Part shown: positions 6,184 to 17,162 of the stretch, in pieces
How the letters are laid out: each line of letters opens with the position of its first letter
Numbering within the stretch: the first letter of the stretch is position 1
Source: Bradyrhizobium sediminis
GTDB lineage: Bacteria; Pseudomonadota; Alphaproteobacteria; Rhizobiales; Xanthobacteraceae
DNA: 64,000 bases
Direction: 5' to 3'
Assembly: GCF_018736105.1 (NCBI RefSeq)
Contig: NZ_CP076135.1
Coordinates: 124,001-188,000 of the forward strand
Translations under genes and position numbers: made by a program
The notes under the pieces: generated by a model
The model's input: the letters and a program-made list of their open reading frames with translations, nothing else
Databases searched by the model: none
Told to the model about the DNA's origin: nothing

Positions 6184-6858
6184 TCAGCACCAGCTCGCCT
6201 GGTCGGCACCCGGCGCCCGCAATAGTTCCTGGATGTTGGCTTCGATGATCCGGAAGCCGACATTGCCGTAGAGTTTCTGCCGTCCCTCGTTCAGGACGAA
6301 GCTCGGGCTGCCTTCGATTCGCATCCTGTCGGCGTCCTGGTAGTCGGATGCCAGTTTCGCATAGGCGGTCCCGTCGTGAATGCGCTTTTCGATGGCGCCG
6401 ATGTCGAGGCCCAGCGCCTCGGCCAGTTCGCATTGAACATCCCAGCGCGCAATGTCGCGGCAATCCCGGAAGAACGCGCAACGGAAGGCCCATAGCAGCT
6501 CGTCGAAGACCGACGCTTCGCCGCCTCGCTCGTGCTGCCATTGCTGGACCGCCGTCATGAACAGATGCGCGCTGGTCGAGGTCGGCGGACGCGTCGTCAG
6601 CCAGATGTCCGGATGCAGCGCGACATGCGGGAACTGCAGCGCCAGGTTCCGCAGATGCGCGTTGAATCCGGCATATTCGCCCTTGTCCCGCCACGTCGTC
6701 GGGATCTTGACGGGCGTATTGCCGAACACCGAACAGAACCGATGGTCCAGCCGGACCGCGTCGCCGAACTTCTCCTTGACCGCATCGATGCGCGCCTGGG
6801 CGATATAGGCCCAGATGCATAATGCATCCGAGAAATAGGCAACCTTGACGACACTCAT
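6184..6858 (-). CDS. DsbA/2-hydroxychromene-2-carboxylate isomerase-like thioredoxin-fold protein
   Basis: 224 residues from the second Met (M-S-V-V-K); a Met three codons earlier is also possible. The start K-V-A-Y-F-S-D-A-L-C-I-W-A-Y and the C-terminal G-S-P-S-F-V-L-N-E-G-R-Q-K-L-Y-G-N-V-G-F-R match the DsbA-like fold (the cis-Pro loop and the last beta-alpha unit). Only one Cys (C-I-W-A) is left where disulfide oxidoreductases carry C-x-x-C, so it is more like the GST-kappa/HCCA isomerase branch than a disulfide catalyst. There is no signal peptide, so it is probably cytoplasmic. No operon partner is seen. Confidence 0.75.
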   Translation of the reverse strand: MSVVKVAYFSDALCIWAYIAQARIDAVKEKFGDAVRLDHRFCSVFGNTPVKIPTTWRDKGEYAGFNAHLRNLALQFPHVALHPDIWLTTRPPTSTSAHLFMTAVQQWQHERGGEASVFDELLWAFRCAFFRDCRDIARWDVQCELAEALGLDIGAIEKRIHDGTAYAKLASDYQDADRMRIEGSPSFVLNEGRQKLYGNVGFRIIEANIQELLRAPGADQASWC

Positions 6859-6972
6859 CGATCGCACCGCCGCGAACCGTCCCCTTCAGCATCTAGCCTA
6901 CGCCGCTGCCAGTCGCCGTTGAGCTGGATCAAACCGGCGCTTCAACGGTCGACATTGGCGGGCCGGATGCGA

Positions 6973-7482
6973 TCACTTGACGAAGATCATTCCGACCATT
7001 CCCGCCTCGCGGTGACCGGGGATCAGGCAGGCATACTCGAACTCGCCGGCCTTGGTGAATTTCCAGACCATCTCGCTGGTCTTCTTCGGAGCGAGCCATC
7101 TTGAGTTGGCATCTTCGTGCGCCATCCCCGGGTTCTTTTGCATGACTTCGGCGTGCTTGAGATTGTCCGCGGCGTCCGCCAGGACGAATTCGTGATCGAG
7201 CTCGCCGTTGTTTCGCAGCACGAATTTGATCTGCTCGCCCTTCCTGATCTCGACCCGCGCCGGGACGAACAGCATCTTGCCGTCCGACTCTCCCATCGTC
7301 ACCTGGACGATCTTTGCCGACTTTTTCGGATTGCCGGGCTCGCCGGCCGAGAATGATTCGCCATGGCCATCGCCATGATCATGTCCATGGCTGTGCCCGG
7401 CCGGGCCTTCGCCGGCCCAGGCGCTTGCCGAAAGCAGTGCTGCGGCGACCAGCGCGACCCCGCCTCTATTCCAATTCATCAT
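6973..7482 (-). CDS. Periplasmic cupredoxin, copper-binding
   Basis: 169 residues with a signal peptide (ending A-S-A-W-A), a His-rich linker (G-H-S-H-G-H-D-H-G-D-G-H-G) and a cupredoxin domain. Type-1 copper ligands are visible: His in E-L-D-H-E-F, and the C-terminal set Y-A-C-L-I-P-G-H-R-E-A-G-M (Cys, His, Met). It probably buffers or oxidises copper in the periplasm. GGAG precedes the start. It is the last gene of the minus-strand metal cluster, downstream of the RND genes, which supports a role in metal homeostasis. Confidence 0.88.
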   Translation of the reverse strand: MMNWNRGGVALVAAALLSASAWAGEGPAGHSHGHDHGDGHGESFSAGEPGNPKKSAKIVQVTMGESDGKMLFVPARVEIRKGEQIKFVLRNNGELDHEFVLADAADNLKHAEVMQKNPGMAHEDANSRWLAPKKTSEMVWKFTKAGEFEYACLIPGHREAGMVGMIFVK

Positions 7483-7541
7483 CTCTCAACTCCTTCGCGT
7501 TCGATATTGGGCTCATTGCTGCCGGTTTCGGCGGGCTCGTC

Positions 7542-7907
7542 TCAGTCGAATTTCGCTTGAACGGTCTTGCCGTCGGGGGCCGTCAATTGCACCACCCCTT
7601 TGGGCTGGCCTGGCAGCGCGGCCGCAGCACTGCCGGAAAGGCGCTTGCCATCGACGGGCGCCAGCACCACCCGCTGGGATTTGCCGCCCGCGACGAGGAT
7701 CGCGGTTCCCTTGAATCCCGATGCCTCAACGGGCTTTTCGCCGGCGTCGCTGATGAATACGTCGACGACTTCGGATTTCACGACCATTTCGACATGGTAT
7801 GATCCGGCGTCGGCGATCCGCCCGCCATTCGTTCCCTTGGCTTCATGCGCCCCGGCCGAACCGGACCAGGCAAGCAAAACTCCGATCAATAGACATCTTG
7901 CGTACAT
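7542..7907 (-). CDS. Small periplasmic protein of the metal efflux cluster
   Basis: 121 residues with a clear signal peptide (ending S-G-S-A-G-A, mature end H-E-A-K-G). The body is predicted as beta-strands with D-G-K-T-V and is weakly similar in style to the N-terminal region of the adaptor encoded two genes upstream. I know no named domain for it. A GGAG site lies 7 bases before ATG. It is 21 bases downstream of the RND pump gene and upstream of the cupredoxin, so it is almost certainly cotranscribed with them and may be a periplasmic metal carrier or pump accessory. Confidence 0.7.
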   Translation of the reverse strand: MYARCLLIGVLLAWSGSAGAHEAKGTNGGRIADAGSYHVEMVVKSEVVDVFISDAGEKPVEASGFKGTAILVAGGKSQRVVLAPVDGKRLSGSAAAALPGQPKGVVQLTAPDGKTVQAKFD

Positions 7908-7928
7908 TTGTTTTCTCCGTTGCTGCGA

Positions 7929-10900
7929 TCAAAAGGCTTCGGCTGATGACGTTCCGCGGGCCGGGTCCACGGACGCGGCGGCGTCCCGCCGCAATCGTTC
8001 GAGATGCTTTTCGCCGTACCGCAGGAACAGGACGGGCGTGAGCAGCATGTCGAGTAACGTCGCGCTGATGAGCCCGCCGAATATCGTGACGGCCACGGGA
8101 TGAAGGATTTCCTTGCCGGGCGTGGCCGCGTCGATCAGCAGCGGAACCAGAGCGACGCCCGCCGCCAGCGCCGTCATCAGCACCGGCGTCAGCCGCTCGA
8201 GGCTGCCGCGGAGCACCAGATTGCGCCCGAACGGCATTCCCTCCTGCAGGGCCAGGTTGATGTAATGGCTGATCTTCAGGATGCCGTTGCGCGCCGCGAT
8301 CCCGGTCAAGGTGATGAAACCGATCATCGATGCGACGGAGAGCGGCTGGCCCGTCAACCAGAGCGCCAAGACCGCCCCGATCAGGGCGAGAGGCACGTTG
8401 CCCATCACGATCACGGCAAACAGCACCGAGCGATAGCGGCTATAGAGAATGGCGAAAATCAGCGACAGCGACAGCAGCGAGAGAATCCCGATGGTCCGGC
8501 TGGCTTCTTCCTGCGCCTGAAAGGTGCCCTCGAGGCGGGTATAAAATCCCTCCGGCAGCCTGGTCGACGCCAGCACTTCCCTGATCGATTCGACGATCTT
8601 CGCCATGTCGGCGGTGCCGTTGGTGTTGGCCAATACCACCACGCGACGGCGCCCGTTCTCGCGCAGAATCTGGTTCGGACCCTCGGTCTCCTTGATGTCG
8701 GCAAGCTGCCTTGCCGGAATCCACCCCGTAGGGGTTTCGATCAGGAGGTCGCCCAGTCGTTGCGTGGTGCGAAGCCGGTCCGGCAGCCGCATGGTGACGT
8801 CGAACCTGCGGTAGCCGTCGACAACGCGCGACATGATCCGCCCGTTCGAGAGCCGGCTGAGCTGCTCAACAACGGCCGCCGGCTGCACGCCATAGAGGGC
8901 GGCGCGGCCGTAATCGACGCGGATTTCGAGCTGCGGGATCAGAACCTGCTTCTCGACCTGCAGATCGACGAGCCCGGGGATGCCTATTAGCCGCGTCCGC
9001 ATCATCTCGGCGGTGGCGCGCAGCGCATCCAGGTCGTCGCCGAAGATCTTCAGCGCGACCTCGGCGCGGACCCCGGACAGCAGATGATCGAGCCGATGGG
9101 AGATCGGCTGACCGACATTGATCGAGGCCGGAAGAACCGCGAGCCGCGCGCGAATGTCCGCGATCACATCGATCTTGGTTCGCGGTGATTTGGCGAGGTC
9201 GACATCGAATTCCGAGGAATGCACGCCTTCGGCGTGCTCATCCAGTTCCGCCCGCCCGGTCCGCCGCCCGACCGTCTTGACTTCAGGCACCTCCATGATG
9301 AGGCGCTCGGCAATCAGGCCGACGCGATTGGATTCGGCGAGCGAGATGCCGGGATTGAACAGCATGTTGATGGTGAGCGTGCCCTCGTTGAAGGGCGGCA
9401 GGAACGAGCGCGGAAGAAGGAACGCGGCGATCCCCGCAATGGTCACGGCGAGCAACGCCATGGCCATCAGGGCGGGCTGGTGGCGGAAGGCGCCTTCGAG
9501 CAGCGCGCCGTAACCGCGCTTGAGCAGGCGTACCAGAGCGCTGTCGCCGTGATCGAGACGTTTCAGGTGCGGCAGCATGTAGTAGGCCATCACAGGCGTC
9601 AGCGTGACCGAGACCGCGAGGCTGGCGAGGATTGAAATGATGTAGGCTTCGCCCAAGGGAGCGAACAGCCGGCCCTCGATTCCCGACAGCGCGAACAGCG
9701 GCACGAACACCAGCACGATGATCGTCGTCGCATAGACGATGCCGGACCGGACCTCCTGCGAGGCCGATACGATCACGTCGAATGCCGGCCTGGGACGTTC
9801 CAGCGCGCGATTTTCGCGCAGCCGCCTGAAGATATTCTCCACATCGACGACGGCATCATCGACCAGCTCGCCGAGCGCGATGGCGAGGCCGCCCAGCGTC
9901 ATGGTGTTGATGGACAACCCGGCGAAATAGAACACCGAGGCCGTGGTCAGGATCGAGACCGGGATCGCGGTCAGCGAAATCACCGTGGTCCGCCAGTTCA
10001 GGAGGAAGGCGAACAGAACGAGGGCGACGACAACGCCGGCTTCCAGCAGGACCTGTTCGACGTTGCGGATCGACGTCTCGATGAAGGTGGCCTGGCGGAA
10101 GACGATCTGGTCGGCCTTCATGCCTTCCGGAAGCGACGCCGTGATTTCCTTCAGGACCCGCTCGACCTCGCGGGTTAATCCGATCGTGTCGACGTTGGGC
10201 TGCTTCTCGATCGAGACGATGACGGCCGGCTTGCCCATGTAGCCGGCTTCGCCGCGCTTGACCCTGGGCGCGAACTCGACGGTTGCGACCTGACGCAGAA
10301 ACACCGGCCCGCCGTTCACCTGCGCCACCACCACGCTGCGAAGGTCGTCCAGGCTGGTGGTTCGGCCGATGTTCCGGATCAGGTATTCGCGCGCGTGCTG
10401 ATCGGTGAACCCGCCGCCGGTGTTGACGCCGAACTGGGTCAGGGCCTGTTCGACCTGCTCGTAGGTGACGCCGAGGCTGCGCAACGCAGGCGGATTCGGC
10501 GCAATGCGATACTGGCGGACCTCGCCCCCGATCGGGATGACCTGGGCGACGCCCGGGATCGCGAGCAGGCGCGGCCGAACGACGAAGTCGGCGGCCTCGC
10601 GGACTTCCATCGCGGACGCCTTCTCGCTCGTCATCGCGACGAGCACGATCTGCCCCATGATCGAGCTGATCGGCCCAATTTGCGGCACGGTGTTCGGCGG
10701 CAACTGGGCCCTGACCAGGGAAAGCCGCTCGGCGATCTGCTGCCGGTTGCGGTAGATGTCCGTCCCCCAGTCGAACTCGACATAGACGATCGAGAGCCCA
10801 ACTCCGGAAACCGAGCGCACCCGCGTGACCCCGGGAACGCCGTTCATCTGGGTTTCGATCGGGAAGCTGACGAGCTGCTCGACTTCCGGAGGCGCCAAGC

Positions 10901-11063
10901 CTTCCGATTCGGTCAGGATGGTGACGGTCGGCTTGTTGAGGTCCGGGAAGACGTCGACCGGGAGCCGGCCGGCGCTGAAGATGCCGAGCAGCACGAGCAC
11001 CGATGCGGCGGCAATCACCAGCAGGCGGTTGCGCAACGACTGGGTGACGAGAAAGCGGAACAT
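7929..11063 (-). CDS. Heavy-metal-efflux (HME) RND permease, CzcA/CusA family
   Basis: 1044 residues, the usual length of an inner-membrane RND pump. Twelve membrane helices are implied by the two halves, each with a large periplasmic loop. The start (F-L-V-T-Q-S-L-R-N-R) and V-D-V-F-P-D-L-N-K-P are typical of HME pumps. The TM4 signature reads G-E-L-V-D-D-A-V-V-D-V-E-N, unlike the D-F-G...D-G-A...E-N of CzcA or V-D-A-A...E-N of CusA, so the transported metal cannot be assigned. It couples proton import to export of metal from periplasm or cytoplasm. The adaptor gene lies 12 bases upstream; no outer-membrane channel gene is in the window. Confidence 0.9.
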   Translation of the reverse strand: MFRFLVTQSLRNRLLVIAAASVLVLLGIFSAGRLPVDVFPDLNKPTVTILTESEGLAPPEVEQLVSFPIETQMNGVPGVTRVRSVSGVGLSIVYVEFDWGTDIYRNRQQIAERLSLVRAQLPPNTVPQIGPISSIMGQIVLVAMTSEKASAMEVREAADFVVRPRLLAIPGVAQVIPIGGEVRQYRIAPNPPALRSLGVTYEQVEQALTQFGVNTGGGFTDQHAREYLIRNIGRTTSLDDLRSVVVAQVNGGPVFLRQVATVEFAPRVKRGEAGYMGKPAVIVSIEKQPNVDTIGLTREVERVLKEITASLPEGMKADQIVFRQATFIETSIRNVEQVLLEAGVVVALVLFAFLLNWRTTVISLTAIPVSILTTASVFYFAGLSINTMTLGGLAIALGELVDDAVVDVENIFRRLRENRALERPRPAFDVIVSASQEVRSGIVYATTIIVLVFVPLFALSGIEGRLFAPLGEAYIISILASLAVSVTLTPVMAYYMLPHLKRLDHGDSALVRLLKRGYGALLEGAFRHQPALMAMALLAVTIAGIAAFLLPRSFLPPFNEGTLTINMLFNPGISLAESNRVGLIAERLIMEVPEVKTVGRRTGRAELDEHAEGVHSSEFDVDLAKSPRTKIDVIADIRARLAVLPASINVGQPISHRLDHLLSGVRAEVALKIFGDDLDALRATAEMMRTRLIGIPGLVDLQVEKQVLIPQLEIRVDYGRAALYGVQPAAVVEQLSRLSNGRIMSRVVDGYRRFDVTMRLPDRLRTTQRLGDLLIETPTGWIPARQLADIKETEGPNQILRENGRRRVVVLANTNGTADMAKIVESIREVLASTRLPEGFYTRLEGTFQAQEEASRTIGILSLLSLSLIFAILYSRYRSVLFAVIVMGNVPLALIGAVLALWLTGQPLSVASMIGFITLTGIAARNGILKISHYINLALQEGMPFGRNLVLRGSLERLTPVLMTALAAGVALVPLLIDAATPGKEILHPVAVTIFGGLISATLLDMLLTPVLFLRYGEKHLERLRRDAAASVDPARGTSSAEAF

Positions 11064-11075
11064 CTGGCGTCCTTC

Positions 11076-12752
11076 TCAGCGTACCTGGCCGAGCAACTCG
11101 GCGCCCTGAACGACGAGGCGCTTGCCCGCCGCAAGCCCGGTGGCAATGAAGACGCGATCGCCGTCGAGCGGTTCGACCCGCACCGCGCGCGGTTCGAAGC
11201 GCTCCGCCGCAACATGCTCGTAGACGACATCCTGGCCGTTGGCATTGCGCACCAGCGCTGCCCGGGGAATGGCGAAGCCGGTCTTTTCCTCATCCGTGGT
11301 GGCGAGCACCGTGACGAACTGCCCGGCCCGCAGGCCCGCGACATCGCCCTGAATGGCGAATTGAACCGGGATCGATTGATTGCGGCCGGCGAAACCGGCG
11401 CCCCGAAACGAGAGCGGATAGGTCCGGTCGTTGTTCAACCGGGCCACCGCGCTTTGGACTCCGGGAAGGGAATCGAAGCTGAGCGCCTCCACCCACAGCC
11501 GGGCCGGGTCGACGATGTGAAAGATCACGGCGTTGGATTGGGCGATCTGCCCTGCGACGGCGGTGCCTTCGGCAATGATGCCGTCCACCGGTGCGACCAA
11601 TTCCTCCGGTTCGCGGCGCGACTTGTCGAGCGAGCCGCGCCGGTCCTTCAGGCCTTGCAGTTCGGTTCGCGTATCCTCGAGTTGGGTGCGCGCGATCGCT
11701 CCGCTCGGCACCAGGGTTTCGTAGCGGGCCAGCCGGCGCTCGACGATGGAAATCTGCTGGTCGAGTTCGCCTTGCCGCTGGCGCATGTCGGAAGCGTCGA
11801 TGGCCTGCAGCGGCGGCGTCACATAAGCGAGAACATCGCCCTTCTTGACCGGCGCCCCCAGCCGCGGAAAGCCACCCGGCGGCGGCGAGAGACGGCCGCC
11901 GACCGACGACTGAACGAATCCGCTGGCGTTCGGATCGGGAATGATGCGGCCCGGCAATTCGAGAGCGGAGCGATGCGCCGCCGATTCGATTCTGATGGTG
12001 CGGATCGCGAGAATTCGCTGCGTGCTCTTGGGCACGAACACGCCGCCGTCGGGCAGCCGCTGCGCCAGGTCGCGCACCGCCGGCATCGAAATTGCGGGCG
12101 TGCCATGGTCCTCGCCCTCATGGGCGCGCGCCGCACCGTCCGATATCGCGAGCATCCCGGCGACGATCAGGACCATCGCGGGCCGGCTCCGCCGCCGCGT
12201 CAGGATCATGACGACGGCGCCCGCGGCAAAACCTCCTAATCCGGCGATGAGCAGCAACGGGACATTGCCGGACGATCGCTCGCGGATTCCGCCTGCGGCG
12301 GCCGACTGCGTGGGCGTCCCGGCCGTTCCGCTCAAATCGTCCGGCGGGATGACCAGCGTGGCGGGCAGCACATCGGCGTTGCCGTCCTTGGTGACGGTGA
12401 AGACCAGGTCATAGGACCCCGGCTTGTTGGACCATGGAGCGCTGAGCCGGTAAGGCTCGGTCGTGCCGGCGCGCGCGGATTCAGGACCCGCGGGAGTCTC
12501 GACTTCGATCGTGGCGCCGTCCACGGATTCGTTGGTCGTAAACCGGTCGAGATAGATGGCGAGTTCGCCGGCCCGGGCGATCGCGACCAGCTCATAGAGG
12601 TCCGAGACCGCTTCGGCCCGCGGAGCGAGATTCGAGATCGCTGCCGGAGGCGGCGCGTCATGATCGTGACCCTCATGGGCCGATAGCGGTCCGCTTTCCA
12701 AAAAGGAAGCAAGAGCTGCCGCGCAGAGCGCGACACGAAACAGGGACAACAT
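11076..12752 (-). CDS. RND efflux periplasmic adaptor (HlyD/CzcB-like) with an extra N-terminal domain
   Basis: 558 residues from the ATG at 12752, which has AGGTGAGGAA before it. It has two parts. The first (to about residue 160) is a secreted beta-rich domain with a signal peptide and H-E-G-H-D-H-D. Next come one or two hydrophobic segments (about 164-205) ending in a signal-like A-A-R-A-H-E-G-E-D-H-G. The second part is a standard membrane-fusion adaptor: barrel-sandwich halves around a coiled-coil hairpin (Q-R-Q-G-E-L-D-Q-Q-I to K-D-R-R-G-S-L-D), then beta-barrel and membrane-proximal domains. It links the pump to an outer-membrane channel. The His motif after each export-like segment suggests fusion of two once-separate proteins. 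Confidence 0.85.
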   Translation of the reverse strand: MLSLFRVALCAAALASFLESGPLSAHEGHDHDAPPPAAISNLAPRAEAVSDLYELVAIARAGELAIYLDRFTTNESVDGATIEVETPAGPESARAGTTEPYRLSAPWSNKPGSYDLVFTVTKDGNADVLPATLVIPPDDLSGTAGTPTQSAAAGGIRERSSGNVPLLLIAGLGGFAAGAVVMILTRRRSRPAMVLIVAGMLAISDGAARAHEGEDHGTPAISMPAVRDLAQRLPDGGVFVPKSTQRILAIRTIRIESAAHRSALELPGRIIPDPNASGFVQSSVGGRLSPPPGGFPRLGAPVKKGDVLAYVTPPLQAIDASDMRQRQGELDQQISIVERRLARYETLVPSGAIARTQLEDTRTELQGLKDRRGSLDKSRREPEELVAPVDGIIAEGTAVAGQIAQSNAVIFHIVDPARLWVEALSFDSLPGVQSAVARLNNDRTYPLSFRGAGFAGRNQSIPVQFAIQGDVAGLRAGQFVTVLATTDEEKTGFAIPRAALVRNANGQDVVYEHVAAERFEPRAVRVEPLDGDRVFIATGLAAGKRLVVQGAELLGQVR

Positions 12753-12828
12753 TGAAAATTCCTCACCTGGCAAGAAGCTTCATCGCACGGAGCGGCCTGC
12801 GAGGCCGGAACCGCGGCGATGTCGTTAC

Positions 12829-13353
12829 TCAGGCGAGGGATCGAGGGGGTTTGCGCAGACCTCGAGGGTCCGCTCCGCGAATCGAAATAACGCGTGCAAG
12901 GCCGATGCGCGGCGAACAGGCCCTGGGGGGAAGATCGGGCGAAACAGCTGCCAGAGCGGCTCCGCAGCAACCCGTGCCGCCGCAACAACCCATCACGCAG
13001 GCATTGGAGCCGGAGGGCGATATGCTCCCTGCGGTTCGAACGGCGGCCTTGGCCTGGGCGGCAGGCAGATCCTGAGCGCCAGGCTGGATTTGAGTGTCAC
13101 GCTGGGTTTGTGCGTCACGCTGGGCTTGCGCGACCGGGTGCACTGATCCGGCCTCTACGGCGGAACTCAACCCGGCCTCAACGGCGGAACTCAGATGTGC
13201 AATGCCGACCGCTGCGCCATGCGCCCGGGCAACGTGCCCGTCATGCCCGTGCGAATGACCGCCGTGGGCTTCGGCCGCAACCGATGCGAATTGAACGGCG
13301 ATCAAAAGCATCGCCGCCCCAAACATCCGCAAAAGCGTTCCGGTCGGATTCAT
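12829..13353 (-). CDS. His/Cys-rich small secreted protein of the metal locus
   Basis: 174 residues. It has a signal peptide (ending A-A-E-A-H), a His cluster (H-G-G-H-S-H-G-H-D-G-H), two short internal tandem repeats (L-S-S-A-V-E-A-G twice; Q-R-D-A-Q-T-Q-R-D-T-Q), and a Cys cluster C-V-M-G-C-C-G-G-T-G-C-C-G near residue 120. The ligands suit soft-metal binding in the periplasm, but I recognise no family. It lies upstream of the adaptor gene in the same direction and may head that transcript. The repeats look recently amplified. Confidence 0.6.
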   Translation of the reverse strand: MNPTGTLLRMFGAAMLLIAVQFASVAAEAHGGHSHGHDGHVARAHGAAVGIAHLSSAVEAGLSSAVEAGSVHPVAQAQRDAQTQRDTQIQPGAQDLPAAQAKAAVRTAGSISPSGSNACVMGCCGGTGCCGAALAAVSPDLPPRACSPRIGLARVISIRGADPRGLRKPPRSLA

Positions 13354-13428
13354 GAGCGATTTCTACCATACGGCCCGGGCAAGGGGAACCAGGAATGAAA
13401 TTGCGGTAAATGCATGGTTGTGCCCTGA

Positions 13429-13704
13429 TCAGCGGTCGGATCGGCCGATCACGGCCATCAGTTCCGCGATCTTCTCGCGCTGATCGGCCTTGTTGCCGCT
13501 GGTGATCGCATGTTCGACGCAATGCGACACGTGATCCCTCAGCACCTCTTCCTCGACGCGGCGGAGCGCGGCCCGCACCGCCGAGATCTGCGTGACGATA
13601 TCGATGCAATAGCGGTCCTCGTCGACCATTTTCGACAGGCCGCGAACCTGGCCCTCGATCCGGCTCAACCGCTTCTGACAGGATACCTTGATGTCTTTCC
13701 GCAT
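13429..13704 (-). CDS. csoR: CsoR-family copper-sensing repressor
   Basis: 91 residues, the normal size for the all-helical CsoR/RcnR/FrmR family, whose tetramers release DNA on binding their effector. The Cu(I) ligand pattern is intact: Cys33, His58 and Cys62 with the 25- and 4-residue spacings of CsoR (H-V-S-H-C-V), and R-I-E-G-Q-V-R-G near the N-terminus. FrmR and RcnR have His in place of the last Cys, so copper is the likely signal. It is divergent from the CopA-type ATPase, with a palindromic operator in the 53-base gap, so it probably represses itself and copA. Confidence 0.92.
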
Positions 13705-13712
13705 TTCCCCTA

Positions 13713-13731
13713 TATACCCCTACTGGGTATA
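13713..13731. promoter_or_regulatory. CsoR-type operator between csoR and copA
   Basis: TATACCCCTACTGGGTATA: inverted TATACCC/GGGTATA arms with a 5-base spacer, centred in the 53-base gap between divergent csoR and copA. The C/G tracts flanked by TA match the layout of characterised CsoR-family operators. Confidence 0.8.
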
Positions 13732-13757
13732 GGTTGCAAGAGGCGGTGGAGAGCGCG

Positions 13758-16226
13758 ATGACCGAAGCTGACAACACCGGCGCAGGCGGCGGCGCAGGGA
13801 ATTCCGGCTGCGGCTGCGCCGCCAAAGCGGCGGCCGCCCGCCCTGCGGAAACGGCGAAGACCGGCTGCTGCGGCGGAGGTCACGACCACGCCGCGCATGG
13901 CCACGACCATCACCACGACCATCCTCAGGCCGGCGGCCCCGCCACCGTGCGCGACCCCGTCTGCGGCATGTCGGTAAACCCCGCGACCAGCAAGCACCGG
14001 TTCGATTACAACGGCGAAACCTGGCATTTCTGCTCGGCCGGCTGCCGCACCAAATTTGCCGCCGACCCGCAAGCCTATCTCGGCGGCAGCAAGCCGAAAG
14101 CCAACGTGCCGGAAGGCGCGATCTACACCTGCCCGATGCATCCGCAGATCCGCCAGGTCGGTCCCGGAAGCTGCCCGATCTGCGGCATGGCGCTGGAGCC
14201 CGAGGTCGCGAGCCTGGATACGCCGCCCAACCCCGAACTTGCCGACATGACGCGGCGCTTCTGGATCGGCCTCGTGCTCTCGATTCCACCCGTTGTCCTC
14301 GAGATGGGGGGTCATTTCGCCGGCGGGCATGGCTGGGTCGACCCGACCCTGTCGAATTGGATTCAGCTGGTGTTCGCCACCCCGGTGGTGCTCTGGGCGG
14401 GCTGGCCGTTCTTCGTGCGCGGCTGGCAATCGCTCAAGACCCGCAATCTCAACATGTTCACCTTGATCGCGATGGGCACGGGTGTGGCCCAGATTTACAG
14501 CGTTGTCGGCACCATCGCCCCCGGGGCCTTCCCGGCAACCTTCCGCGGCCATGGCGGCGCGGTTGCGATTTATTTCGAAGCTGCAGCCGTGATCACCGTG
14601 CTCGTCCTGCTCGGCCAGGTGCTGGAATTGCGGGCCCGCGAGGCGACATCGGGCGCGATCAAGGCGCTGCTTCAGCTGGCGCCGAAAACCGCCCGCCGCA
14701 TCGGCGACGATGGCGCCGACCATGAGGTCGCGATCGACAGCCTGCAGGTCGGCGATCGTCTGCGCGTGCGGCCGGGAGAGAAGGTGCCGGTCGACGGTGT
14801 CATTCTCGAGGGCCGCTCAGCACTCGACGAATCCCTGGTCACCGGCGAATCGATGCCGGTCACCAAGGAAGTCGGCGGCAGGGTGATCGCGGGCACGCTC
14901 AACCAGTCCGGCGGCTTCGTGATGCGCGCCGACAAGGTCGGCCGCGACACGCTGCTGTCCCAGATCGTCAGGATGGTGGCGGAGGCGCAGCGCTCGCGCG
15001 CGCCGATCCAGCGGCTGGCCGATCAGGTTTCCGGCTGGTTCGTGCCGGTCGTGATCGTCACGGCCCTGATCGCTTTCGCCGCCTGGGCCTGGTTCGGGCC
15101 GGAACCGCGGATGGCGTACGGCCTGGTGGCGGCCGTCAGCGTGCTGATCATCGCCTGCCCCTGCGCGCTCGGCCTCGCCACGCCGATGTCGATCATGGTC
15201 GGCGTCGGGCGCGGCGCTCAGGCCGGCGTGCTGATCAAGAACGCCGAGGCGCTGGAGCGCATGGAAAAGGTCGACACCCTGGTGGTCGACAAGACCGGCA
15301 CGCTGACCGAGGGCAAGCCGAAGGTCGTCGCGATCGTCGCAGCCCCCGAATTTGGGGCGTCCGAGATCCTGCGGCTCGCCGCCAGCGTCGAGCGCGCCAG
15401 CGAACATCCGCTCGCCGACGCCATCGTGCGGTCCGCCAAGGAGCAAAGTCTCGATCTCGGCAAAGTCGAGGAGTTCGACTCGCCGACCGGCAAGGGCGCG
15501 ACCGGCAAGGTCGACGGCAAGACCGTTCTGCTCGGCAATGCCAACTTCCTGTCGTCGCTCGGTGTCGAAACCGGGGCGCTGAACGAACAGGGCGAACGTC
15601 TGCGCGGCGACGGCGCCACCGTCATCAATATCGCGGTCGATGGCCGGCTGGCGGGGCTGTTTGCCATCGCCGATCCGGTCAAGGCGTCGACGCCGGACGC
15701 CCTGAAGGCACTGGCCGCCGAAGGAATCAAGGTCATCATGCTCACCGGAGACAACCGGACCACGGCCAACGCCGTCGCACGGACGCTCGGGATCACCGAT
15801 GTCGAGGCCGAAGTCCTGCCCGATCAGAAGAGCGCGGTCGTCGCCAAACTGCAGAAGGCCGGGCGGATCGTCGCCATGGCCGGCGACGGCGTCAACGACG
15901 CCCCGGCGCTGGCCGCGGCCGAAGTCGGCATCGCCATGGGCACCGGCACCGACGTCGCGATGGAGAGCGCCGGCGTCACCCTGCTGAAGGGCGACCTCGG
16001 CGGCATCGTTCGCGCCCGGAGGCTTTCGCAGGCCACCATGAGCAACATCCGGCAGAACCTGTTCTTCGCGTTCATCTACAACGCCGCCGGTATCCCGATC
16101 GCCGCGGGCATCCTCTATCCCAGCCTCGGTATCCTGCTGTCGCCGATCATCGCCGCCGCGGCCATGGCGCTGTCGTCGGTCAGCGTGGTCGGCAATGCAT
16201 TGCGATTGCGCGTGACGCGATTGTGA
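13758..16226 (+). CDS. copA: Copper-translocating P-type ATPase
   Basis: 822 residues from the ATG at 13758, preceded by GGAGAG; an upstream TTG would add 8 residues. Order: a Cys/His-rich tail (G-C-G-C-A-A-K, H-D-H-H-H-D-H), a YHS domain (R-D-P-V-C-G-M), a small metal-binding domain (Y-T-C-P-M-H-P), eight membrane helices with C-P-C at 467-469, the phosphorylated Asp511 in D-K-T-G-T, the nucleotide-site H-P, and G-D-G-V-N-D-A-P. It exports Cu(I) from the cytoplasm at the cost of ATP. No classical C-x-x-C HMA domain is visible; the YHS and C-P-M-H-P domains replace it. Regulation is probably by the adjacent CsoR. Confidence 0.93.
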
Positions 16227-16231
16227 TCTAG

Positions 16232-16268
16232 CCACGGACCACAGGAGATTCGTCTCTGTGGTCTGTGG
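16232..16268 (+). promoter_or_regulatory. UUCG-capped hairpin between copA and the YeeE pair
   Basis: The arms CCACGGACCACAGGAGA and TCTCTGTGGTCTGTGG enclose the tetraloop TTCG, with one G-T pair and one bulge. The 3' arm touches the GGAG ribosome site of the next gene. No T-run follows, so it is not a standard intrinsic terminator; an mRNA end-protecting or translation-limiting role is inferred. Confidence 0.6.
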
Positions 16269-16277
16269 AGTAATGCG

Positions 16278-16703
16278 ATGGCTCATTTTACGCCGCTATC
16301 GGCGGCAATCGGCGGCGGGCTGATCGGCCTTTCCTCCGTCCTGCTGATGCTGCTGACCGGCCGAATCGCCGGCATCAGCGGCATATTCGGCGGCCTGCTC
16401 AATCCCAGAAGCGGCGAAATCGGCTGGCGCATCGCCTTCATTGCGGGGCTCATTCTGGCGCCGCTGATCGCGGGCTTGATGGGCCATGGGATGCTTCCCC
16501 CGCGGATGCCGGCAAGCTGGACCGTGATCGTCGGGGCGGGCCTGCTGGTCGGCTTCGGCACCAGGCTTGCCGGCGGCTGCACCTCCGGCCACGGCATCTG
16601 CGGGATGGCGCGCTTCTCCGCCCGCTCCATCGCCGCGACCGTCATCTTCATGGTCGTGGCCATCGCGACCGTTGCGCTCACTCATCACGTGTTCGGAGGC
16701 TGA
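16278..16703 (+). CDS. YeeE/YedE family (DUF395) membrane protein, first half
   Basis: 141 residues with about four membrane helices and the family motif G-G-C-T-S-G-H-G-I-C-G (residues about 93-103), whose Cys residues in thiosulfate transporters lie on the substrate path. It forms a pair with the next gene, 3 bases downstream; in other bacteria the halves are fused or paired (PmpA/PmpB type) and take up or export a sulfur species. The GGAG ribosome site touches the hairpin after copA. Placement after copA suggests a link between sulfur and copper handling, but that is inference. Confidence 0.85.
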   Translation: MAHFTPLSAAIGGGLIGLSSVLLMLLTGRIAGISGIFGGLLNPRSGEIGWRIAFIAGLILAPLIAGLMGHGMLPPRMPASWTVIVGAGLLVGFGTRLAGGCTSGHGICGMARFSARSIAATVIFMVVAIATVALTHHVFGG

Positions 16704-16706
16704 ACC

Positions 16707-17162
16707 ATGCCGATGATCGCATCCTTGTTGTGCGGATTGGTGTTCGGCGCCGGCCTGCTGATTTCGGGAATGGTGCAGCCGACGAAAGTCATCGGCTTTC
16801 TCGATATCTTCGGCGCGTGGGACCCGAGCCTGGCCGTCGTGATGATGGCGGCCCTCGCGGTATCCGTCCCGGGCTTCATGTTGGCGAAGGGCCGTTCACG
16901 GCCGCTGCTGGCAGCTCGAAACTTCTGGCCGGCCAGAGACGATATCGACCGGCCGCTGGTCGTTGGATCTACCCTGTTCGGGATCGGCTGGGGGCTCGTT
17001 GGATTGTGCCCGGGGCCGGCGCTGGAAAACCTCGCGACGCTGTCGCCCGATGTGTTCGTGTTCGTCGCAGCGATGGCCGCGGGCATGGTGCTTCGCGACC
17101 TCTGGCAAAGGTCGCGGTCCGCGACGCCGCGCGAACAGGCGCTGACCAGCGCCGACGGTTAG
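16707..17162 (+). CDS. YeeE/YedE family membrane protein, second half (DUF6691-like)
   Basis: 151 residues with about four membrane segments. It shares the family's G-L-V-F-G-A-G-L-L-I-S-G-M-V-Q-P-T-K-V start and the G-I-G-W-G-L-V-G-L-C-P-G-P-A motif (residues about 91-104), where the Cys corresponds to that of the partner's second motif. It starts 3 bases after the preceding gene, so both are made from one mRNA and probably act as a heteromer in the inner membrane. The C-terminal tail is short and basic. The substrate (thiosulfate or another sulfur compound) cannot be fixed from sequence. Confidence 0.83.
   Translation: MPMIASLLCGLVFGAGLLISGMVQPTKVIGFLDIFGAWDPSLAVVMMAALAVSVPGFMLAKGRSRPLLAARNFWPARDDIDRPLVVGSTLFGIGWGLVGLCPGPALENLATLSPDVFVFVAAMAAGMVLRDLWQRSRSATPREQALTSADG

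Follow-up and report, generated by a model that had tools for sequence, protein, structure and literature searches.

A 64-kb stretch of Bradyrhizobium sediminis DNA (C1:124001-188000 of the single-contig, 5.45-Mb genome G000; hereafter the window, with positions counted from its first letter) carries what appears to be the csoR-cueA copper divergon known from this genus and, on its csoR side, genes for a resistance-nodulation-division (RND) efflux pump of the NieA/HME5 class. We consider it fairly probable that the csoR-side transcript of the divergon has been extended by this CopBAC-like efflux operon and that the locus provides CsoR-derepressed copper efflux through a shared TolC channel. 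CsoR divergons and HME5 pumps are each already known. In the open-licence PMC literature we came across no account in which a CsoR-box is followed by an RND pump operon.

The csoR gene (13429..13704, minus strand) encodes a predicted copper-sensing repressor of 91 amino acids (PF02583, 6.4e-30). When aligned with solved CsoR chains, its RYCID and DHVSHC segments keep the C / H-x3-C pattern, which we take to be the copper ligand set of CsoR. Divergent from csoR is a gene for a Cu(I) ATPase of the P1B-1 type (CopA/CueA; 13734..16226, plus strand; TIGR01511, 604.6 bits, above cut-off) with the CPC, YN and MALSS strings. A CsoR-box, TATACCCCTACTGGGTATA, lies between the two genes at 13713..13731 (no strand assigned; arms TATACCC and GGGTATA around the spacer CTACT). 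It is the sole match in the window at up to three mismatches (shuffle mean 0.11) and the only perfect site in the genome. This 19-bp box is identical, letter for letter, to that of the B. liaoningense csoR-cueA divergon, in which TATACCCnnnnnGGGTATA likewise stands between a divergent csoR and a P1B-1 ATPase gene; the published section on that divergon describes CsoR-dependent repression from a bidirectional promoter, with induction by copper and also by zinc and cadmium (PMC5057107). The box also agrees with the consensus for type-2 CsoR in Streptomyces, as given in the relevant part of PMC3902906. Within the genus, a csoR match at E<=1e-30 was present in 194 of 195 genomes, and all of the 30 best-scoring csoR loci, our own included, have the box with at most one mismatch. 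On these grounds the locus appears to be the known Bradyrhizobium csoR-cueA divergon, and its box would be under CsoR control. The published description, in the part concerned, covers csoR and cueA (PMC5057107), whereas the window has an RND efflux operon after csoR.

Another CsoR-box-like palindrome, with one mismatch, lies outside the window at C1:356190-356208 (L171), where it starts 42 nt before a putative aconitase gene, acnA, and has a ccmA-like ABC gene on its other side. By a rough hand estimate, about 0.4 one-mismatch sites per genome are expected by chance; a reversed control pattern of the box gave no site in the genome. Among 30 corresponding genus loci (the best 30 of matches in 59 of 60 genomes, own locus included), 21 have a box with the 5-nt spacer at two mismatches or fewer, seven have its half-sites set 4 or 6 nt apart, and two lack it.

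Five open reading frames (ORFs) follow csoR on the minus strand. They encode a His/Cys-rich secreted protein (12829..13353, 174 aa), a periplasmic adaptor (11076..12752, 558 aa), the pump (7929..11063, 1044 aa), a small periplasmic protein (7542..7907, 121 aa) and a CopI-like cupredoxin with a His-rich N-terminus (6973..7482, 169 aa; PF00127, 3.5e-11; NCBIfam CopI models below their cut-offs). From csoR down to the cupredoxin the gaps are 75, 76 (with the adaptor ATG at 12752), 12, 21 and 59 nt. A simple scan of 6800-13800 gave two terminator-like sites, both within coding sequence (shuffle mean 5.2), and none in the intergenic gaps. The csoR-side transcript probably runs on through the pump genes, which would then be co-transcribed with csoR. 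The gene calls of the initial annotation proved sound in this respect: the ORFs for the cupredoxin, the small protein, the pump, CsoR, CopA and a YeeE/YedE pair beyond copA are real, and of these only the small protein is without Pfam or NCBIfam support.

The same order (copA / csoR, His/Cys-rich ORF, adaptor, pump, small protein, cupredoxin) was found in four other genomes (L205, L206, L061 and L113), with gaps of about 11-118 nt as judged from match edges; in L206 and L061 the contig ends before copA does. Pumps of the clade, at 62% identity or more, occur at 40 places in 38 of the 195 genus genomes. At least five genomes (G000, G006, G115, G141 and G167) have csoR on the same contig, roughly 3 kb or less from the pump, and their pumps are at least 90% identical to that of the window; L061 and L113 apparently represent contigs G167:C229 and G006:C19. 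Where the pumps stand at 85% (L150, L207, L208), the His/Cys-rich ORF is found at 30-33% and no csoR match is present in the stretch examined. The simplest history would have a pump operon placed behind csoR within a single small lineage.

The pump (TIGR00914, 761 bits, above cut-off) was aligned with E. coli CusA, Synechocystis CopA, three pumps of pMOL30 (searched whole) and the three remaining metal-type pumps that its own genome encodes. Its closest characterised relative among these is Synechocystis CopA (40% identity; helix 4 GSVVDDSIVDMEN). It is 30% identical to CusA and 33% identical to the L145 pump of pMOL30, which we take to be CzcA from its protein start and its DFG..DGA motif. 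The fourth transmembrane helix reads GELVDDAVVDVEN (residues 398-410; 9834..9872, minus strand), exactly as in the initial annotation, compared with GAMVDAAIVMIEN in CusA, and patterns of the window pump's type occur in 101 of the 104 clade pumps. The alignment shows neither the D-A-A..EN of CusA nor the DFG...DGA...VEN of CzcA; DFG..DGA, with VEN, is the HME1 and HME2 consensus in the cited part of PMC3637150. The proposal that the pump fits neither Czc nor Cus therefore stands, but it does not fall outside the described classes. It contains both HAEGVH (residues 610-615; 9219..9236, minus strand) and HRLDH (residues 656-660; 9084..9098, minus strand), the motifs reported as conserved in NieA of Cupriavidus neocaledonicus, an HME5-type pump for which a new class 6 was proposed in the section describing it (PMC7060636). 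HAEG[VI]H is present in 101 of the 104 clade pumps and HR[LIM]DH in all 104. The window pump would thus fit HME5 / NieA class 6, an assignment made by the published motifs; since the NieA description fits its motifs, we rejected the idea of an unclassified pump.

The NieI-NieC-Cep-NieB-NieA operon, for which nickel is the metal predicted (PMC7060636, section on NieA), shares HAEGVH and HRLDH with the window. Its gene order is matched in part: leader, Cep, adaptor and pump succeed one another in the window as well, but the window has no NieC (TolC) and has Cep and NieB fused. The window also has CsoR and copper genes attached. CopBAC of Synechocystis PCC 6803 (plasmid pSYSX) resembles the window in a pump with VDD..D.EN in helix 4, an adaptor and a related small third protein. 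The differences are the pump identity of only 40%, regulation by CopRS, and a CopA without HAEGVH and the last His of HRLDH. We also compared the Synechocystis adaptor with a Cep profile and found no match to the Cep domain. According to the parts of the studies concerned, CopBAC is copper-inducible and required for copper tolerance (PMC4335983, PMC4284471), a strain without copBAC being copper-sensitive (PMC4335983).

The adaptor had been read as two parts. The adaptor itself is confirmed (PF13437 above cut-off; TIGR01730 at 83 bits, below its cut-off of 94.9), whereas the parts are not separate ORFs: a single fused frame, of a Cep::NieB type, joins an exported N-terminal domain, a hydrophobic segment (from hydropathy, residues 163-187 in the numbering of the translation used), an Arg-rich stretch and an HlyD-type adaptor. 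Reading by eye places the Arg-rich stretch, together with a second signal-like stretch, after the hydrophobic segment, and these features are what would be expected if two exported proteins had been joined. The fused protein may adopt a hairpin topology. Three annotated betaproteobacterial records list, in this order, TolC, an exported cep protein (about 190 aa), an adaptor (about 370-390 aa), pump and small protein. The N-terminal part of our adaptor is 23-41% identical to such separate cep proteins and 26-71% identical to fused relatives. Its best named match, at 95% identity, is from Bradyrhizobium sediminis.

Proteins that cluster with the small protein are encoded in 70 of 91 loci, usually straight after the pump. 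A profile of 47 members matched Synechocystis CopC (slr6044, encoded by the small gene that follows copA on pSYSX) over 97 columns (hhalign probability 91.8%, E 7.4e-7), and the window protein is thus related to CopC. The His/Cys-rich ORF has no family match and was missed by a simple gene caller. We kept it as a gene, in agreement with the initial annotation, because eight further loci conserve it at the same position and retain its Cys cluster and KPPR end (in L063 the match spans only 74 of 174 residues). It occupies a leader position like that of NieI, in which we presume a likeness to CzcI. The protein changes fast: in the four csoR-linked relatives its identity is 47-53%, against 90-93% for the pumps. 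Leader proteins ahead of some betaproteobacterial operons have RPPR-like or similar ends.

To place the pump among its relatives we used a panel of 105 loci: the window, L051-L140 (90 loci; the first ten chosen for spread among 40 plasmid rows, the remaining 80 being the best of at least 587 places) and 14 further loci (L150-L160 and L162-L164; L161, which duplicates L076, was left out). In a FastTree phylogeny, in which long outgroup branches meet, the window falls in an alphaproteobacterial clade (the alpha clade) of 45 rows with support of 99. Marker genes were counted within 6 kb of the pump, using self-written sequence clusters and patterns; ten cluster representatives were passed through Pfam and the other names come from record annotation or reading. 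Copper markers (CsoR, CueR-like, Cu-type P1B, multicopper oxidase, CopI-like) accompany 20 of the 45 alpha-clade pumps, against three with Zn/Cd/Pb/Co markers, one NicO-like and three chromate; 19 have none. Of the other 60 loci, eight have copper, 12 Zn/Cd/Pb/Co, none NicO-like and two chromate markers, and 36 have none; loci without any marker were counted as negatives. Fisher tests gave 6.5e-4 for copper markers, 0.09 for Zn-type markers and 1.8e-16 for the distribution of TolC described below, values whose significance is overstated as the loci are related. One panel locus, an Aquabacterium contig from a metagenome-assembled genome (L133), encodes almost the same pump as Stutzerimonas kunmingensis (L132), which may reflect a recent transfer or a binning error.

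Copper is favoured for the alpha clade because its markers outnumber those of Zn/Cd/Pb/Co by 20 to three. The same count speaks against the strongest alternative, in which the pump would export divalent metals (Zn/Cd in the main, or a broad range) and CsoR in Bradyrhizobium would be a multi-metal switch, so that co-regulation would not imply a copper substrate. Also against it are the cupredoxin in the same operon and the multicopper oxidase gene that comes next in L061, L113 and L206. In favour of divalent metals, the B. liaoningense study reports, in the section concerned, that cueA mRNA rises about 90-fold with zinc and about 135-fold with cadmium and that cueA gives tolerance to both (PMC5057107), and several beta-clade relatives of the pump lie near genes for CadR-like MerR regulators, ZntA-like ATPases and CDF proteins. 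Taken together, we regard divalent-metal export as unlikely.

Several observations weigh against copper efflux under CsoR. The CusA Met triad, whose presence would have pointed to an ordinary Cus system, was sought by alignment and is absent: at the positions that we take to be M573, M623 and M672 (residues checked in the alignment), the window pump has N, S and H, the last His of HRLDH aligning with M672. The genome already has a CusA-type pump of its own with the full Met triad (C1:1116578-1119673), with a P1B ATPase gene downstream and no outer-membrane factor (OMF) gene nearby. The window pump, without a Met triad, carries a His-rich motif that was linked to nickel by the authors who described it. 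By analogy with the published divergon, which in the cited section also answers to zinc and cadmium (PMC5057107), the switch in the window may not be specific to copper. No sigma-70-like promoter was detected by a simple scan of 6800-13800 (shuffle mean 1.0), which leaves the csoR promoter unplaced. The clade pump lies beside csoR in five of 38 genus genomes among the matches listed, no marker of any kind accompanies 19 of the 45 alpha-clade pumps, and in the other clades Zn/Cd/Pb/Co markers (12 of 60) occur no less often than those of copper (eight of 60). Because the pump lacks the CusA Met site, the divergon answers to zinc and cadmium and the strain has a CusA-type pump, we hold copper as the main pump substrate to about two chances in three. 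The metal, left open in the initial annotation, is thus narrowed, as the CsoR-box and the divergon point to copper, but the response of the published divergon to zinc and cadmium (PMC5057107, as above) keeps it from being settled. An ordinary Cus system was rejected: CusCFBA (HME4) shares the RND and adaptor architecture and the copper setting, but the window is without the Met triad, the DAA motif and CusC, and the MMM pump is a separate one.

The second question is how the metal would leave the periplasm. As had been noted from the sequence, the locus has no OMF gene, neither by a PF02321 search of the whole genome nor by a TolC scan of the locus. The genome contains four OMF genes, none of them near any of its four metal-type RND pumps: one is an unpaired TolC gene, one stands beside putative ABC and HlyD-type genes, and the remaining two lie next to two further RND pumps. 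As none of the four is near the window pump, we rejected the idea that it has a channel of its own at another site in the genome. The unpaired gene was found at C1:2073270-2074685 with no adaptor or pump ORF adjoining (ORFs read by eye), and its protein has a match in all 98 genus genomes searched. The puzzle of the absent partner gene likely has an ordinary answer in this unpaired TolC.

Absence of a channel gene from the operon is a feature of the clade. TolC-type sequence was found within 3 kb upstream of the pump in none of the 39 scored alpha-clade loci, compared with 41 of the 51 scored loci outside, the latter a lower bound as a TolC annotated in L058, one of the ten outside negatives, was missed. 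The scan (tblastn at 1e-8, queries mostly from panel loci) left 14 loci unscored, six in the alpha clade and eight outside. A divergent channel in the alpha clade may escape it, the window genome itself being covered by the Pfam profile. L100 (short pump ORF, TolC present) was excluded from tree and tally. Three clade plasmid records with at least 6.9 kb upstream (L051, L052, L060) list no TolC in gene tables that are incomplete. Fused adaptors and TolC occur together in, for example, L053, L074, L079 and L099, which argues that fusion and channel loss were separate events. Overall, 38 loci have the fusion only, 30 TolC only, nine both and eight neither, and the tree requires seven changes of TolC and 11 of fusion; the fused/split label, taken from open-frame length, is crude, and L164 with an adaptor of 566 aa is labelled split.

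Sharing of TolC by pumps is well known, and the window pump probably borrows this general outer-membrane channel. Alternatively, the pump could work without any channel, taking metal out of the cytoplasm or membrane and either releasing it into the periplasm or passing it on to the carrier proteins, an idea to which the 39 alpha-clade loci without a detected TolC ahead of the pump lend some weight, as does the Synechocystis copBAC region, which also has no annotated OMF (in an incomplete gene table). However, sister lineages keep TolC directly ahead of the adaptor, so the ancestral machine was probably tripartite, and TolC is available throughout the genus. In addition, a tolC transposon mutant of B. 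liaoningense is described, in the part of the study concerned, as copper-sensitive, with lower tolerance, to varying degrees, to others among Zn, Pb, Cd, Co and Ni (PMC5057107); that tolC is not necessarily the orthologue of the gene at C1:2073270-2074685. We therefore find channel-free operation rather improbable.

The weakest alternative, a nickel pump as proposed for C. neocaledonicus NieA from the histidines of HAEGVH and HRLDH, agrees with the presence of both motifs and with a NicO-like gene (so named by sequence reading, not Pfam) within 6 kb of the pump in alpha-clade L075 and about 6.0 kb away, just beyond the cut, in L074 outside the clade, but appears very improbable given that NicO-like neighbours within 6 kb number one in 45 and none in 60, that both motifs are found here in an operon that is linked to CsoR and encodes a cupredoxin, and that nickel efflux by NieA was suggested from sequence, the section describing it giving no experiment and naming a knockout as future work (PMC7060636).

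The reading that we favour, CsoR-derepressed copper efflux through a shared TolC, would work as follows. Without copper, CsoR would sit on the single box at 13713-13731 and silence transcription in both directions. Copper would release CsoR, upon which CopA/CueA would move Cu(I) from the cytoplasm to the periplasm. In that compartment the metal could be kept by the cupredoxin, the His/Cys-rich protein and the CopC-like protein. Its expulsion would be the task of the pump and the two-domain adaptor, through the housekeeping TolC, the exit suggested by the lack of a TolC gene in the operons of the clade.

Two neighbouring regions complete the locus. Downstream of copA, on the plus strand, lie genes for a YeeE-type membrane protein (16278..16703; PF04143) and a YedE/DUF6691 membrane protein (16707..17162; PF20398, 4.8e-44). 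The pair is also present in L205 and L113 at 75-79% identity. At the other end, the window has only 105 bp (6868-6972) where L061, L113 and L206 hold the multicopper oxidase gene between the cupredoxin gene and dsbA. This oxidase has no match in the first 25 kb of the window, and Cu-oxidase_2 has three matches elsewhere in the genome.

In the open-licence PMC literature we found no report of an experiment on a NieA-class pump, and the only metal that we found named in print for the class, in one paper, is the sequence-based nickel proposal (PMC7060636, section on NieA). A NieA-class member wired to a characterised copper switch offers a direct and cheap test of this proposal, the more so as csoR, cueA and tolC mutants have already been made in the genus, according to the part of the B. 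liaoningense study concerned (PMC5057107). Likewise, the clade-wide lack of a channel gene in the operon is a natural experiment on the sharing of TolC by metal RND pumps. It is tempting to suggest, although we would put this somewhat short of an even chance, that NieA class 6 pumps, at least in alphaproteobacteria, are copper exporters with a His-based rather than a Met-based site, that their clade fused Cep to the adaptor and swapped its own channel for the housekeeping TolC, and that one Bradyrhizobium lineage set this whole export line under CsoR. If so, a single box would govern the removal of copper from cytoplasm and periplasm together.

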